A stretch of DNA of 61,575 nucleotides, taken from IMG/VR virus record IMGVR_UViG_3300032081_000734, positions 1 through 61,575 of that record. One strand, 5' to 3'. Position numbers and translations under genes: made by a program. Under the pieces are notes generated by a model. The model was not told where the DNA came from. It did no database searches and saw nothing but the letters and a program-made list of their open reading frames with translations. Below are positions 15,240 through 28,784 of this stretch, one piece after another (position 1 is the first letter of the stretch; the number at the start of each line of letters is the position of its first letter). This DNA comes from a virus.

Positions 15240-16661
15240 TCACATAAGGTTCTTGACGGAAACGCGACGGTAGTAGCGGTTGGTGGCAGCCTTGACAGCG
15301 CCGAACGCCTGATCGGTTCCTTCTGCGAATGGGTTAGCGACCATGCCGTAGCGGGTCTTAAAGCCAATCTTGGGTTGGAAGGTGTCCTGTCCAACTGCAC
15401 GAACCATCTGAAGAGGAACGTATGGGCAGTAGAATAGACCAGCGTCATAAGGTGAAGTACCCTTATAACCAACAACGTAGTACTGAAGAGCACTGTTGTT
15501 TGAAGCATAAGGATCGATGTAGACCTTATACTTACCGTTGATAGTACCAGCAAAGGTGTTGCCAGTGTCGTCAACGTTAAGGTTAGCGTTGAGTGCAGGG
15601 GTGTAATCAAGTACACCAGCCATGGTTAGCGCAGAAGCAACATCAGCAGAAGTTAGGATGATGTTACCCTTTCCTCTACGAGTTCTTTGTGCAATCTGGT
15701 TAGCATCTCTTTCGATCTGGAAGAGGAGTCCTTTGAACTTCTCAACGGACCAACGACCGTTGCTGTCGATGTCTAGGTCAAACTGACCAGCGGTAGCGGT
15801 GTTAAGTTGAGCACCAGCTTCAGCAGTCTTGTAGATAGTTCTGATAACTTCTCTGTTGATTTCCGCAAGGATTTCAGTTGAGAGAATGTTAGCAAGTTCT
15901 GCTTCAGCGTTAAGACCGTGGATTGCCTTAAGGTCTTGTGCAAGTTCCAAGGAGTACTCAGCCTTGAGTGCTCTGGACTTAGCGGTTACGGTGACTTTCT
16001 CGATTGAGAATGCCATCTGGTTGAAGTCAGTTCCACTCTCGCCTAGGGCTTCAGAGTCGGTAACTGCCATACCCTGACCAGTGCTGTATGTTGCAGGAGC
16101 AGCATTAGGATCAAGTACACCAGGATTTGAACCACGCTGTAGCGTAGTACCGAAACCAACGGTGCCATCGCTGTCAGCACCACCAGTGTAGTCACCCTGA
16201 GTTGCAGAGTAACCAGAGTTCTGTGCAGAGAATGCGGAATCTGCTTCGTTGAACAAAGCTTCGGTTCCATTCATGTTCTCATAGCGAGAACGCATTGCGA
16301 AGATAAGTCCAGTAGGACCGTTCATTGGTTGTACACCAGCAAGGTCATAAGCGACCAAGTTGGGCATGGAGCGACGGATGAGACTGATCAGTACGGGATC
16401 GAAACCACCAGTGGGTGAACCACTGTCAGTACCACCAGAACCACGGTAGTATGCACCACCACCTGTGGAGAATGAGTTGGTGGGAGTAGCTTCTTGAAGG
16501 TCATAACCCTCAGAGAAAGCACGCTCTTCGTTTAGGAAACGCTCTTGGTTCTCAAGTAGTTGGGCTGTTACAGCTCTACGGTGGTTGTCCTTAATAGGAT
16601 CACTACCTTCGTAGTCTAGGAGAGGTGCCCACTTCTCCATTAATTGGGGATTGTTATACAT
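15240..16661 (-). CDS. 23: gp23 major capsid protein precursor
   Basis: A 473-residue protein; T4 gp23 has 521. The N-terminal 57 residues are helical and charged and end in the pattern LQE followed by ATPTN, which fits the T4 prohead protease rule (Leu/Ile-x-Glu then small residue), so cleavage after Glu57 is expected. The following body (LIRRSMPNLVAYDLAGVQPM, GPTGLIFAMRSRY and others) is typical gp23. It assembles the capsid lattice around the gp22 core. There is no clear ribosome-binding site in front of the ATG and no late box in the 50-base gap to gp22, so it may depend on the transcript from upstream genes. Confidence 0.96.
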   Translation of the reverse strand: MYNNPQLMEKWAPLLDYEGSDPIKDNHRRAVTAQLLENQERFLNEERAFSEGYDLQEATPTNSFSTGGGAYYRGSGGTDSGSPTGGFDPVLISLIRRSMPNLVAYDLAGVQPMNGPTGLIFAMRSRYENMNGTEALFNEADSAFSAQNSGYSATQGDYTGGADSDGTVGFGTTLQRGSNPGVLDPNAAPATYSTGQGMAVTDSEALGESGTDFNQMAFSIEKVTVTAKSRALKAEYSLELAQDLKAIHGLNAEAELANILSTEILAEINREVIRTIYKTAEAGAQLNTATAGQFDLDIDSNGRWSVEKFKGLLFQIERDANQIAQRTRRGKGNIILTSADVASALTMAGVLDYTPALNANLNVDDTGNTFAGTINGKYKVYIDPYASNNSALQYYVVGYKGTSPYDAGLFYCPYVPLQMVRAVGQDTFQPKIGFKTRYGMVANPFAEGTDQAFGAVKAATNRYYRRVSVKNLM

Positions 16662-16711: not shown

Positions 16712-17671
16712 TCACTTAATTCTGGAGAGAGTTTCTAAGTAACGAGACATTGAACCAGAAAAATCTGGACCACTGCCTACACCCTCAGAAAGAGTTTCTG
16801 AAGTGTCGGCTACGACAGCTTCTGATGGAAAATATGACTCTCTTAGAGTCGTTAACTTATCACGGTAAGATTCTTCACCCTCAAACTCAACACCTTCTGC
16901 TAGAGAAGCGAGTTTCTCCTTCTGAGTTAGGGCAAGACCTTCAGAAACTGCTGCGAAGATTCCTTCAGCAGTAGATTCTCCAAGTCTGCGATTCAGATGG
17001 ATATTTCTCTCGATTTGCTCGTTGAGCTTGGTCTCCATGTCATCAAGTTTTTCTACCATATTCTCAACAACATCATATTTATCTTCAGGGATTGATACAT
17101 AATGATCTTCAAAAAGACTCTTCATTCCTTCAAGGAATGATTCGGTCATCTCAGTTTTCAGACCATGTTCGATCTGAAGTGAATTTTCTTCGATCCATTC
17201 TTGAGAAACATACTCAAGGTAGGAATCGACTCTTTCAACTAGTTCGGACTTCATGCCCTCTAGTTGTTCTGCAAGAGCTGCTTGTGATTGCTCTTCGATT
17301 TGTGCTTTGACTTGCTCAACACGCATGTGAAGGGCAGCTTCAAAAACAGTTTTTGCTTTTTCTTGGAACTCTTCGGAGAGTTCTTCACCAGCGAATAGAG
17401 CGGCAACATCTTCTTCGACGTTGACTTCTTCGATGGTGTTCTCCACTGCTTCGACTTCTTCTTTCTTAGTTGCGCCCTGACCTTGTGGTGCAGGAGCTTG
17501 ATTGATAGAAGCAGCAGGGTCTTTTAGTTTGGCTGAATCGTCGTCGGGACGATAGTTCTCTGGGGTAGGACCACCGAGATCTTCGATTTGAGCTCCACCA
17601 GCAACCATTGGTGCTGGAGCAGCTGCGCCTTTGCTCACGACGTTATCCATTTCTTGTAAATTAGCGGACAT
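16712..17671 (-). CDS. 22: gp22 prohead core scaffold protein
   Basis: A 319-residue protein, somewhat longer than T4 gp22 (269). It is very acidic and helical, with long coiled-coil stretches rich in Glu, Ala and Leu (LKTEMTESFLEGMKSLFEDH, VENMVEKLDDMETKL) and a disordered Pro/Ala/Gly-rich N-terminus. It ends PDFSGSMSRYLETLSRIK. Scaffolds of this type form the core inside the prohead and are then digested by gp21. Position between gp21 and gp23 matches T4. A TATAAATA box lies 46 bases upstream of the ATG. Confidence 0.9.
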   Translation of the reverse strand: MSANLQEMDNVVSKGAAAPAPMVAGGAQIEDLGGPTPENYRPDDDSAKLKDPAASINQAPAPQGQGATKKEEVEAVENTIEEVNVEEDVAALFAGEELSEEFQEKAKTVFEAALHMRVEQVKAQIEEQSQAALAEQLEGMKSELVERVDSYLEYVSQEWIEENSLQIEHGLKTEMTESFLEGMKSLFEDHYVSIPEDKYDVVENMVEKLDDMETKLNEQIERNIHLNRRLGESTAEGIFAAVSEGLALTQKEKLASLAEGVEFEGEESYRDKLTTLRESYFPSEAVVADTSETLSEGVGSGPDFSGSMSRYLETLSRIK

Positions 17672-17726: not shown

Positions 17727-18377
17727 TTATAAACTTGATAGAAAATTTTGAAATAAGTTAATTTTATTTTCTTCTAATTTTTTCTGATCTACCAAAGTAT
17801 TAATTTGCTTGTAGGTTCTTTCTGCAAGTTTTTCGCGGAGAATTCCTCCGTCCCAAACCCAATCTTTACCTTCCATAATACCGTCAACAAAAGCATCAGG
17901 TGCGGAAGGATCTGCTACAATATCAGCAGCAGTTGCTAAAGCAAAGTCATCATTAACTAAACTATATCCTTCTTTAGTGGGAGAAAGGGTTCCAATTCCT
18001 CTAGAAGAAACTCCAAGTTTGACACCATCATTTAGAAGAGATTCGGCAATTTTACCCATTGGGGTAGAAAGAATTTTTGCCTTACCTATAAAATTATTTC
18101 CTTCTCTTTGAAGAGAAACAATCTTATGGGAAACTCGATCAAGATTGATGGAAGGGCCATCAGGATGCCCCAATTCCCCAAGAGCTCTGCCTTTAGATAC
18201 AAAGTTTTCGTTGTATCGTCCTACTTCTCTTTCTAGAAGAGAACAGTCATACATCCTCTTGTTTCTATTGGGCATATTACCCTGAAGGAAAACTCCTTCA
18301 ATATACAGATTCTTTTTACCGTTGCGTTGCTCAACGATAATTTCAACCTGTTCGATCTCTTCTCTAATAAGTTTCAT
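17727..18377 (-). CDS. 21: gp21 prohead core protease
   Basis: A 216-residue serine protease of the phage prohead type, close to T4 gp21 (212). The segment RALGELGHPDGPSINLDRVSH contains the candidate catalytic His, and LGVSSRGIGTL the candidate catalytic Ser, as in the family. The N-terminus has YIEGVFLQGNMPNRNKRMY. It digests the scaffold and trims gp23 during head maturation. It lies five bases after the gp68-position gene. Confidence 0.93.
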   Translation of the reverse strand: MKLIREEIEQVEIIVEQRNGKKNLYIEGVFLQGNMPNRNKRMYDCSLLEREVGRYNENFVSKGRALGELGHPDGPSINLDRVSHKIVSLQREGNNFIGKAKILSTPMGKIAESLLNDGVKLGVSSRGIGTLSPTKEGYSLVNDDFALATAADIVADPSAPDAFVDGIMEGKDWVWDGGILREKLAERTYKQINTLVDQKKLEENKINLFQNFLSSL

Positions 18378-18381
18378 TTGT

Positions 18382-18648
18382 TTATGCGGTGAATCCTACT
18401 TTAGTTCCTTTTACATCAGCAGATCCAGCTAGGATCAAATCCTTATGCTTTTTCTCGACATATTCTACAGTTCCAGTTGGCATAGTCATAGAACCAATAC
18501 CTTGAAAATTTTCATCAAGAATGGTGATTAACTGAGCACCTGCATTACTGTTGTAAAGGCGAACAACAGTTGCTGAACTGAAACTCGATGCTGCTCCAAC
18601 ACTAGTTGGGCAATTTGTTTGTGGTCCTAAGACAAGGGATCTTGCCAT
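18382..18648 (-). CDS. Small beta-rich head protein in gp68 position
   Basis: An 88-residue protein in the place where T4 has gp68, between gp67 and gp21. The sequence is not gp68-like: it is all-beta (SSATVVRLYNSNAGAQLITI, GSMTMPTGTVEYVEKKHKDL), resembling small phage structural proteins. Its ATG overlaps the gp67 stop by one base. It may be a core or capsid accessory protein; family not identified. Confidence 0.7.
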   Translation of the reverse strand: MARSLVLGPQTNCPTSVGAASSFSSATVVRLYNSNAGAQLITILDENFQGIGSMTMPTGTVEYVEKKHKDLILAGSADVKGTKVGFTA

Positions 18649-18839
18649 TATTCTTCTCCAGTTTCTGTTGTTGCGTCAAACTCAACTTCTTCTTCTCCTT
18701 TACCAAACAAAGATGCTGCGGCTAAAGGACGAAGAGAATCAATTTTCTCTGCGGATTTGCCGTAAAGAGCATCTTTAATTTCATCACTAATTTGTGACGC
18801 GCTTGCACCACTAGCAATTAAATCGACAATATTGTCCAT
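18648..18839 (-). CDS. 67: gp67 prohead core protein
   Basis: A 63-residue protein between portal and gp21, as in T4 (gp67, 80 residues). It has a helical N-terminus (MDNIVDLIASGASASQISDE), a SLRPLAAASLFGKGEEE segment and an acidic tail. In T4 gp67 is a small core component needed for head shape and is destroyed by gp21. Homology is judged from position, size and the acidic end. Confidence 0.75.
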   Translation of the reverse strand: MDNIVDLIASGASASQISDEIKDALYGKSAEKIDSLRPLAAASLFGKGEEEVEFDATTETGEE

Positions 18840-23678: not shown

Positions 23679-23906
23679 CTACCAGTCTGGATATTCGTTT
23701 TTGAAGGAAGTATCAATTTTTCTTGAATTCATGACACGTTTGATTGTGCATTCTTTACATTCGTATGAATATGCCGATGGAAAAGATCCTCTATCTTTTC
23801 TAGTAAGATAAAAGTCCGTTAATAAATTTTTTGTTTGACCACAAGATCTGCACTGCCTTTCATTAAAAAGAAGATGTTCTAACTCAAAAGAATCTTCAAT
23901 ATCCAC
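23679..23906 (-). CDS. Zinc-finger protein between gp17 and gp18
   Basis: A 75-residue protein with CRSC (residues 19-22) and CKEC (residues 50-53), a treble-clef pair of the kind that precedes HNH nucleases, although no HNH residues follow. The C-terminus is basic then acidic. The start is GTG (23904-23906), overlapping the gp17 stop as TAGTG. I recall similar proteins at this position in cyanophages. It could bind DNA or help packaging; function unknown. Confidence 0.7.
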   Translation of the reverse strand: MDIEDSFELEHLLFNERQCRSCGQTKNLLTDFYLTRKDRGSFPSAYSYECKECTIKRVMNSRKIDTSFKNEYPDW

Positions 23907-26838: not shown

Positions 26839-27162
26839 TCAGTCAACCCATTCTAGTTTTGAAGGATGATATCTCCTTGCGTTTTTAATATTAAAGTTCT
26901 TTTCTTCTACTGGATAAATGTTATGTACCATTGCACCAGGATATTCACTCTGAAGTTTTTCAGCCAATTCCTGCTTTGATGGTATTCCAGTCTTTGTTAC
27001 CATCTCAATTCTATATATGCTATTCTGCCAAGTTATATCGGCAACATAACTCTCACCAACTTCCTCTTGAGATTGTTGATCTTGAGAGTTGATGTATAGG
27101 TTTCCGTTGAAGTCGCCAGAGATATTGACTGACTCTGACATAAATTGTTTAAAGTTTTTCAT
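26839..27162 (-). CDS. Virion protein with head-targeting-like N-terminus, 107 residues
   Basis: The ATG at 27160-27162 overlaps the preceding stop as ATGA, so I prefer it to the in-frame start at 27174. The protein begins MKNFKQFMSESVNI, close to the T4 capsid-targeting peptide MKTYQEFIAEA of internal head proteins, and FMSE followed by Ser fits prohead-protease cleavage. The rest is a compact domain with IPSKQELAEKLQSEYPGAMV that resembles residues 410-435 of the adjacent 540-residue protein. I infer an internal head protein; not proven. Confidence 0.65.
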   Translation of the reverse strand: MKNFKQFMSESVNISGDFNGNLYINSQDQQSQEEVGESYVADITWQNSIYRIEMVTKTGIPSKQELAEKLQSEYPGAMVHNIYPVEEKNFNIKNARRYHPSKLEWVD

Positions 27163-28784
27163 CAGCAATTCCAAGCTCTAAGGGACTTATTGATTCTGCT
27201 ATCGGGATCTCTAGCAGTTTTGGCAGAAGTGAGTTTTGCCTTCATACCTTTCATTCTTGCACAGAATGATGATCTTCTTTTGTTACCCTTCTTTTTAGAT
27301 GGTGCTTTTAGATCAGAACCAGGGTTCTCTCTTTCATAAGACTTACGTCCTTTTTCATTGAGGCCACCTTCTTTGTTCTTACCAGACTTCTTAGTCCATG
27401 CAGCACCTTCTGCCATGAAATTTCCAAAACTTTTAACACCTTCTACAGTTACAAGCGGTTCATTTTCAATACGATCTCTTTCAAAGAAATTTGCCAATAT
27501 AGCTTCAGGATAAATTTTTCTGAGTTGAATTAATACATCTTCTCTAGAAGGTCTCTTTGATGTTGGAAAGAAAAATTGAAGTGACTTATACTGACCTCTA
27601 AAGGTAAAGAAGATTGTATAAGTTCTTCCCGTTTTTTGAATTCTTTCATATTTTTCTTCAACATACTCTTCATTTGATGGAGTAACAGAAGCAATATCAA
27701 ATGTATTTGATCCAAGAGCAGCAGGACTTGAATTCATATCCCAGTTTTTTGGCCCATATGCACACTCTTCTCTAGTCTCATTCTTTTGGCACTGAGGGCA
27801 ATAACGAACATTTCCCATACCCTCTACATGTAGACTGAGATTGTCACCGAGATTTACTTCTTCTTTCTTAGTTTTCTTAACACAGTTTGGATATCTCTTT
27901 CCAAACATAGTCTTCATGCCTTTCTGCTCATAACCTTTCCAACATGCTTCGCCAATCTCCACTTCTTCTTTTGTGCTATTACCCCAGTTAGCAGCACCAA
28001 CCTTACGACACTTTACTAAAGCACCAGAAGCATAAGCAGAGGGCCATACAGAATAGCGAGACTTGACCTTACTGTAACAAGCGTCTTTCTTACCACTACC
28101 TTTTCCTGGTGTATCCTTTGCTTCTTTCATTGATTCTTTTTTCTTTTCTGGTAAATTTTTATGCTTTGTTTTTGCAAAATCTTTTACATCTTTCAACTTC
28201 ATACTGGATGCAGCTTTAGCAACCTCAGATGATGGATTTTCCATTTCACCTTTTTGAGTTGCTCTAACCATTCCAAAAAATCTTTGCTGTTTTTTAGAAA
28301 CTGCTTCTTCGTTTCTAATTTTTCTATCAGTTTTTACCATGGTAGGTGCAGATGCTCCAGTTTTTTTCTGTTGACCAGGATCTTCTCTTCTCTTTGCTGC
28401 CTTAGCAGCAACTCTCTCTTTCTTAGACATACTTGCCCTTTTAGAAGAAGAAACACATTTAGGAATACCTTCACCAGGTTTATCACTTGCACAGGTTCCA
28501 CCTGTTACAACATTAACCCATCCACCTTTACCATCTTTTGATTTAGATTTACCAAACCAATCACGTAGCCCTTCTTCAGATATTCCACCGTCACCATTAG
28601 CATTTCCACCATTGCCATTACTACTTTCACCATTACCATTCTTTTTATTCTCGGAATCATCACCTTCTTCATCTTTTGCAAGATATCCACGAGAACCAAT
28701 ATGGTATCCCATAGGAATCTTCTTACATTTTTTATCTGTAAAACAGTAGTAATAACCAATTTTACATTTCTTAGATTCCGTCAT
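27162..28784 (-). CDS. Multi-domain basic virion protein with DUF6321-like end, 540 residues
   Basis: A mosaic. Residues 1-35 have Cys pairs (CKIGYYYCFTDKKC). Residues 40-68 are an Asn/Gly linker. Residues 71-150 form a basic block with GLRDWFGKSKSKDGKGGWV. Residues 236-268 hold CYSKVKSRYSVWPSAYASG. Residues 277-342 have a second Cys-rich part with CPQC. Residues 370-436 resemble the 107-residue neighbour. Residues 451-459 (KSFGNFMAE) look like a head-targeting/prohead-protease motif placed internally. Residues 461-540 match what I remember as DUF6321 (GGLNEKGRKSYERENPGSDL, RMKGMKAKLTSAKTARDP). It is very rich in Lys. Between gp16 and gp17; probably packaged with or bound to DNA, by inference. 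Confidence 0.65.
   Translation of the reverse strand: MTESKKCKIGYYYCFTDKKCKKIPMGYHIGSRGYLAKDEEGDDSENKKNGNGESSNGNGGNANGDGGISEEGLRDWFGKSKSKDGKGGWVNVVTGGTCASDKPGEGIPKCVSSSKRASMSKKERVAAKAAKRREDPGQQKKTGASAPTMVKTDRKIRNEEAVSKKQQRFFGMVRATQKGEMENPSSEVAKAASSMKLKDVKDFAKTKHKNLPEKKKESMKEAKDTPGKGSGKKDACYSKVKSRYSVWPSAYASGALVKCRKVGAANWGNSTKEEVEIGEACWKGYEQKGMKTMFGKRYPNCVKKTKKEEVNLGDNLSLHVEGMGNVRYCPQCQKNETREECAYGPKNWDMNSSPAALGSNTFDIASVTPSNEEYVEEKYERIQKTGRTYTIFFTFRGQYKSLQFFFPTSKRPSREDVLIQLRKIYPEAILANFFERDRIENEPLVTVEGVKSFGNFMAEGAAWTKKSGKNKEGGLNEKGRKSYERENPGSDLKAPSKKKGNKRRSSFCARMKGMKAKLTSAKTARDPDSRINKSLRAWNC

Follow-up and report, generated by a model that had tools for sequence, protein, structure and literature searches.

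Candidate internal head proteins encoded between the terminase genes of a T4-like cyanophage: a leader-tagged protein and its mosaic neighbor

Do two adjacent genes of a T4-like cyanophage, encoding the proteins here referred to as p107 and p540, specify internal head proteins? A sequence-only reading of this DNA had attributed a T4-like head-targeting motif (CTS) to both, at the N-terminus of p107 and inside p540, together with a shared domain and a possible origin of p540 by fusion. In this work, these claims were followed up on the whole stretch of DNA analyzed, a T4-like cyanophage fragment corresponding to a virus record of 61,575 bases (hereafter the window), and by comparison with other phage genomes, IMG/VR sequences and the open-access literature.

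A head-targeting-like leader on p107

Both genes belong to a minus-strand head-tail series ordered as gp13, gp14, gp15, TerS, p540, p107, p425, TerL, gp18, gp19, gp20, two small ORFs, gp21, gp22 and gp23, placing the locus between the small (TerS) and large (TerL) terminase genes; the p540 stop and the p107 start share one base (CTGATGA). The genome that encodes p107 also encodes an S77 prohead protease and a gp22 core (Table 1). The window gp21 aligns with T4 gp21 at the GELGHP, GVSSRGIG and PSAPDA segments, its catalytic segments being T4-like, and gp23 displays near its N-terminus a candidate cleavage site, LQE/A (LAE/A in S-SCSM1), of the same kind as the p540 boundary sites described below. 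Two other features of the region were recorded: a 75-aa endonuclease VII-like protein (23682-23906, minus strand; phrog_4723), whose gene is flanked by TerL and the sheath gene and may be a homing-type insertion, with an annotated 'endonuclease' at the matching position in S-SCSM1; and the two small ORFs between portal and gp21 (18651-18839 and 18385-18648, minus strand; phrog_14164 and phrog_19805), a position at which the small genes of S-SCSM1 bear virion protein tags.

Table 1. Features of the p107/p540 locus and of the head genes relevant to it (window positions)
Feature	Position	Strand	Basis
p107, 107 aa, phrog_1742, proposed CTS-tagged internal head protein	26839..27162	-	ORF; phrog_1742 E 7.6e-43
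CTS-like leader MKNFKQFMSE, putative gp21 cut after Glu10	27133..27162	-	conservation in 30 homologues
Beta-beta-alpha-beta domain of p107 (residues 36-84)	26911..27057	-	homologous to p540 residues about 378-447
p540, 540 aa, mosaic basic protein, phrog_727 (gp114 / T4-GC 119 locus), proposed head polyprotein	27162..28784	-	phrog_727 E 5.6e-126
RDWF module (residues 73-150) after ISE70	28335..28568	-	phrog_12753 E 3.6e-30; boundary 8/9 non-redundant
DUF3008-like module (residues 161-215)	28140..28304	-	PF11450 E 0.0025, below curated cut-off; phrog_30268 E 7e-23
DACY/SAYASGALVKC module (residues 222-273) after MKE221	27966..28121	-	boundary 14/16 non-redundant
CWxGY module (residues 280-304) after IGE279	27873..27947	-	hydrophobic-x-Glu boundary 22/23 non-redundant
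RYCPxC Cys module (residues 322-348)	27741..27821	-	module recurrence
PS..YP domain of p540 (residues 378-447)	27444..27653	-	homology to p107 domain; boundary Glu in 42/43 homologous windows
Internal CTS-like motif KSFGNFMAEG (residues 451-460)	27405..27434	-	directly before DUF6321
DUF6321 module (residues 460-540) after E459	27165..27407	-	PF19846 E 4e-22
gp21 prohead protease (Peptidase S77), presumed processing enzyme	17727..18377	-	PF03420 E 4.4e-34
gp22 scaffold/core protein, presumed CTS-binding core	16712..17671	-	PF25623 (T4_CASP) E 1.1e-79
gp23 major capsid protein	15240..16661	-	sequence and gene order, order as in annotated S-SCSM1

The 107-residue ORF opens at an ATG at 27162 on the minus strand and its product begins MKNFKQFMSES, as the sequence-only reading had it. 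Relatives were found in 135 phage records, every one named as cyanophage, and 80 of 133 candidate IMG/VR stretches were kept. Across 30 homologues down to 60% identity, K2, F7 and E10 are invariant, residue 4 is F (28/30) or Y (2/30), residue 8 is restricted to M, I or L, and residues 3, 5 and 6 vary. The family is thus characterized by an N-terminal leader of about ten residues with an aromatic at 4, Phe at 7, a hydrophobic residue at 8 and Glu at 10, which aligns with the T4 CTS ungapped and in register (K2, F/Y4, F7, M/I/L8, E10). Ten N-terminal residues of T4 IPIII are enough for its packaging, and genetics assigned positions 4 and 7 to targeting and positions 8 and 10 to processing (PMC9026906). 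Within the p107 family the conserved stretch extends past residue 10 (SVNISGDFNGNLYI), and the leader is for that reason not uniquely conserved among its own homologues; its specificity rests instead on its sharing by unrelated proteins. The protein itself is acidic (pI 5.2).

The same leader on unrelated proteins

The sharing of the leader was assessed with a DNA pattern encoding an ATG-anchored M-K-x-(F/Y)-x-x-F-hydrophobic-x-E, using the pattern read backwards as control. Ten matches and no reversed ones were obtained in nine phage genomes. Those of T4 corresponded to IPII, IPIII and gp61.1, and in 5 of 7 marine cyanophages the only matches were the p107 homologue or an NMNAT/cytidylyltransferase; with this pattern, S-SSM7, S-PM2 and pelagiphage HTVC008M displayed no ATG-anchored match. 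Divergent NMNATs retain the leader, that of S-SSM7 carrying it after a GTG codon, and the NMNAT copies of HTVC008M and S-PM2 are devoid of it. In 25 contigs the pattern gave 28 matches and 0 reversed; with these, the search of other cyanophage genes that had been proposed as a check reached 38 ATG-anchored matches and 0 reversed in a total of 34 T4/cyanophage records. Further, a broad version of the motif in the long ORFs of S-SCSM1 (55,991 residues) had no internal match and two N-terminal ones, namely the p107 and NMNAT homologues. The match of the p107 leader to the CTS is not due to chance.

An IMG/VR scan for M-K-T-F-x-(E/Q)-F-I-x-E retrieved at least 120 stretches, versus 1 for the reversed pattern. 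Among the matches listed, 88 CTS-led proteins in 80 loci fell into 49 families that BLAST did not join once the leader was removed; together with split p540-family genes (see below), they indicate that the leader is common to unrelated mature domains in T4-like phages. Residue 11, left free in the pattern, is A or S in 55 of the 88 proteins, an excess that fits a protease site after Glu10. Synonymous codons vary at the fixed leader positions, and thus it is the peptide, not a DNA or RNA element, that is shared. Among 16 contigs with CTS matches, S77 protease genes were seen in only 5 and T4 portal genes in 6; those with neither were mostly fragments, one of them being nonetheless 132 kb long. 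Two loci (L234 and L258) had a CTS-led gene beside terminase and T4-type sheath genes. Most of the 20 CTS-led proteins scanned against Pfam matched no family, and in the open-access literature CTS and cyanophage were mentioned together only in passing, in a T4 review.

Several individual CTS-led genes were noted. Four genes led by MKTFKQFI[TSL]E, with bodies otherwise unrelated, lie within 3 kb in L268 (6505-9422, minus strand), resembling an internal-protein cassette. The protein at L274 6037-6813 (plus strand) matches the ADP-ribosyltransferase domain of polyvalent proteins (PF18760, E 9.7e-24), reminiscent of T4 Alt. Others match a GNAT acetyltransferase (L304 3231-4265), HNH (L256 6967-7239), DUF6267 (L257 947-2098) or DUF5661 (L258 6583-7671), and are candidates for delivered head cargo. 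T4 gp61.1 (NC_000866 18966-19130; L092 967-1131, minus strand), a 54-aa hypothetical protein, has a perfect CTS-like leader, MKTFKEFIKE; we know of no virion role for it.

Virion annotation provides an additional line of evidence. The NMNAT was identified by MS as a virion protein in S-SCSM1 (PMC9602691), and the NMNAT cluster T4-GC190 is a virion protein in S-SM1 (PMC3037559). The S-SCSM1 homologue of p540 (QFG06285.1, 54% identical) is annotated as 'virion protein' (PMC9602691), and that of p107 (80% identical) as 'hypothetical', with no virion tag. The mature form of the latter would give several tryptic peptides, and its lack of a tag counts mildly against abundant packaging. The S-SCSM1 tags (48 counted in the record versus 45 reported in the paper, PMC9602691) seem to mirror the MS result rather than protein names, because no tag is given to TerS, TerL, the short tail fibre or the head completion protein. 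Two other tagged S-SCSM1 proteins deserve mention, ORF93 (L091 5627-5836), a 69-aa DUF3008-like protein with a C-terminal CTS-like stretch (...RTFKEFLEYIE), and a translational repressor, RegA-like by name (74558-74992; L097 24558-24992).

Modules and boundary sites of p540

The domain defined by PS-x6-L-x3-YP, which the sequence-only reading saw in both proteins, reflects true homology: separate profiles of the p540-type (66 sequences) and p107-type (54 sequences) domains aligned in hhalign with 97% probability, E 8.6e-11 and 24% identity over 58 columns. AF2 models display a beta-beta-alpha-beta fold, with pLDDT of about 80-86 over the fold, and p107 matched no Pfam family. The basic C-terminal tail of p540 was likewise recognized as DUF6321, with a Pfam match at residues 468-538 (79.1 bits versus a curated cut-off of 28.5), the whole protein having a pI of 9.67; no paper on DUF6321 was found in the open-access literature. 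The N-terminal Cys-rich modules, the DUF3008-like stretch and the further modules of p540 had escaped the earlier description. Its homologues are likewise mosaic, combining these modules in varying order, and the same locus lies after gp16 in S-RIM2, Syn9, S-SM1 and S-SCSM1, the protein belonging by sequence to both DUF6321 and phrog_727.

The motif KSFGNFMAEG is indeed present within the 27162-28784 ORF, at the residues previously given for it. The p540 N-terminus (MTESKKCKIGYYYC) has no CTS leader, the CTS-like motif occurring at residues 451-460, and an internal start at V450 that would yield a separate CTS-DUF6321 protein was ruled out, as the codon is GTT. Among the p540-type sequences fetched, KSFGNFMAEG was found only in the close relatives L005, L006, L008, L010 and L012 (plus L183, from the same record as L008); other homologues have PLLQVSEG/AAWT where the window has PLVTVEGVKSFGNFMAEG/AAWT, and the stretch reads as an 11-residue insert or fusion scar. 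A similar internal CTS-like stretch was found once more, in L151 (ITFSQFMSEAKSAAWT). The motif arises in shuffled p540 with P = 0.009; over the 39 window proteins tested, 0.35 such motifs are expected and 2 were observed, one of them the N-terminal copy of p107, and the internal motif alone is thus weak evidence, within chance for the window. Consequently, the earlier claim of a T4-like head-targeting motif in both genes holds unequally: for p107 it is well supported, given the conserved register, the occurrence of the leader on many unrelated proteins including the virion NMNAT, and the S77 gp21 in the window, whereas the p540 copy is weaker, being limited to close relatives and expected by chance at the rate above.

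The sequences are best read as suggesting that KSFGNFMAEG derives from the CTS of an independent CTS-DUF6321 gene that later became fused into p540. Stand-alone DUF6321 proteins bear related N-terminal leaders (L171, MSSYIPSFGEFMAEGAAWT; L153, MKTFKQFCIDLDEGAAWT; L250, MKTFIQFIEEDKSPAW). Contig G024 has three neighboring CTS-led genes, encoding a DUF6321 protein, a product of 151 aa that matches the initial part of phrog_727, and p107; contig G025 has a CTS-led gene for the first part of phrog_727 and a CTS-led p107. These stand-alone and split genes beside p107 fit the proposed fusion of shared domain, internal motif and DUF6321. The internal motif is lineage-specific and most homologues lack it, and the earlier interpretation of p540 as a whole stands only in part.

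Might p540 be processed at its module boundaries? A global excess of hydrophobic-x-Glu-(A/G/S) in p540 alone was not convincing (4 observed versus 1.9 expected, P 0.12; P 0.02 with I/L/M only), and the test was therefore moved to module boundaries across homologues, removing windows >50% identical and scoring hydrophobic-x-Glu within 16 residues upstream of each module core. The site preceded the RDWF module in 8/9 cases (2.4 expected for random windows), DACY in 14/16 (3.9), CWxGY in 22/23 (6.4), DUF6321 in 15/21 (5.4) and the PS..YP domain in 21/21 (5.3); for the five module types together, 80 of 90 non-redundant junctions have it, about a quarter being expected. Glu is present at the DUF6321 boundary in 96% of distinct homologous windows, with P3 often not hydrophobic, and at the RYCP module it is not significantly enriched. 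This enrichment led us to propose that p540-family proteins are gp21-cut head polyproteins, as the boundary sequences suggest. In addition, a second linear motif, [FY]S[DN]WRx[ED][LF], was observed in the same mosaic proteins (L001, L009, L028, L091, L147, L154, L173 and others) and in SSCSM1_92, a tagged virion protein; it often precedes a Glu-bounded module and is possibly another core-binding or cleavage signal.

Proposed pathway, alternatives and known systems

From the observed sequences, their conservation, the shared domain, the presence of gp21, the sharing of the leader, the boundary-Glu enrichment and the virion annotation of homologues, we infer the targeting, cleavage, injection and later function of these proteins as follows. 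The locus is probably an internal-head-protein cargo locus of a T4-like cyanophage, made up of a CTS-led p107 and a head-targeted, gp21-cut p540. Made with the ten-residue CTS MKNFKQFMSE, p107 would be docked by it into the gp22 prohead core and cut by gp21 after Glu10, and the 97-residue mature domain would stay in the head with the DNA and enter the cell at infection. The mosaic, basic p540 would also enter the head, where it would probably be cut into several small proteins at gp21-like hydrophobic-x-Glu sites between modules. Against this reading count the acidity of p107, its untagged homologue, the p540 N-terminus without CTS, which leaves its targeting without an explanation, the absence of the internal motif from most homologues, the RYCP module without boundary enrichment, the frequent non-hydrophobic P3 at the DUF6321 boundary, and the low number of CTS-bearing contigs with S77 protease or T4 portal genes. 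More tentatively, and at somewhat less than even likelihood, the whole p540 family may be a head polyprotein of shuffled modules, each following a gp21 site, cut in the prohead and delivered with DNA, the CTS being a general cargo tag on dozens of families across aquatic T4-like phages, including ADP-ribosyltransferase-domain, GNAT acetyltransferase-domain and HNH proteins as well as NMNAT.

Boundary Glu residues could also be structural parts of the modules. We consider it rather unlikely that only p107 is CTS-tagged and that p540 acts as a normal structural or core component, left uncut at its boundaries, with Glu as part of the folds and KSFGNFMAEG as a chance resemblance. The lineage specificity of this motif and its expected frequency in the window agree with such a role, as do the near invariance of the DUF6321-boundary Glu even without a hydrophobic P3 and the richness of CWxGY windows in the reversed E-x-hydrophobic order (28/38). 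Conversely, hydrophobic-x-Glu lies ahead of five types of module that are unrelated to each other and whose order is shuffled, a hydrophobic-x-Asp control was much lower for 3 of the 4 modules tested, and p540-family modules also exist as separate CTS-led genes.

An RNA-polymerase-directed role for the delivered p107 domain would be compatible with the cargo reading: it may bind host RNA polymerase like T7 Gp2 or RNAP epsilon, aiding early host takeover. In two AF2 models built from different alignments, T7 Gp2 ranked first in PDB (prob 0.91 and 0.98), followed by YkzG, the RNAP epsilon subunit, and a BFVD match is annotated as RNA polymerase inhibitor; Foldseek E-values are only 0.1-0.23, small folds of this type are common, with ribosomal LX-like chains ranking as well, and a Pfam match is lacking, rendering this likeness a lead only and the role itself improbable. 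Improbable too, in our opinion, is that the N-terminal peptide is a non-head signal, for docking to a phage or host factor or as a translation-start element, with p107 remaining intracellular. The untagged S-SCSM1 homologue and gp61.1, a bearer of the peptide lacking a known virion role, would agree with it, but the peptide is also borne by T4 IPII and IPIII, the T4 CTS being experimentally proven (PMC9026906), and by the NMNAT, a virion protein (PMC9602691); varied synonymous codons exclude a DNA or RNA element, and the excess of A/S behind Glu10 is consistent with cleavage by a protease.

If the cargo reading is true, a ten-residue motif would reveal from sequence which proteins T4-like phages, uncultured ones included, pack in their heads and probably deliver. 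It would also account in a simple way for the NMNAT-like enzymes repeatedly found in cyanophage virions, and make directly testable the function of many hypothetical proteins, many of them encoded between terminase genes. Likewise, delivery of many small proteins by way of one head polyprotein cut by a protease would be novel for a phage.

The closest known systems are the T4 internal proteins. Like IPI, IPII and IPIII, p107 has a ten-residue N-terminal leader with K2, an aromatic at 4, F7, a hydrophobic residue at 8 and E10, followed by a small residue; the same leader occurs on unrelated mature proteins, and the phage encodes S77 gp21 and gp22. Unlike them, p107 has an acidic body (T4's being basic) of unrelated sequence and is encoded between terminase genes, p540 has its motif in an internal position, and both presence in the virion and cleavage are putative here. 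T4 Alt and gp21, both with processed or putatively processed termini, are like the cargo proposed here in being non-scaffold proteins handled by the prohead protease, and show that such handling is not limited to IP proteins; their propeptides are only terminal, whereas the many putative sites of p540 are internal and separate shuffled modules. Propeptides of phiKZ and SPN3US are cleaved after x-x-Glu motifs (PMC5694885); in both, as would occur here, head cargo is targeted and then trimmed on the C-terminal side of Glu, a gp21 relative being the protease, and identical N-termini are found on diverged proteins, but their propeptides are mostly far longer than the T4-like ten residues of p107. 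Finally, p540 is a member of the Syn9 gp114 / T4-GC 119 / phrog_727 group by its locus after gp16 and its C-terminal DUF6321, and differs from the other members in the extra 11-residue CTS-like insert of the window lineage before DUF6321. The module-boundary sites suggest a variant without description in the open-access papers searched, the polyprotein reading of phrog_727 being new here, and the leader, as far as its sequence indicates, is a known T4 device whose setting and cargo are new.
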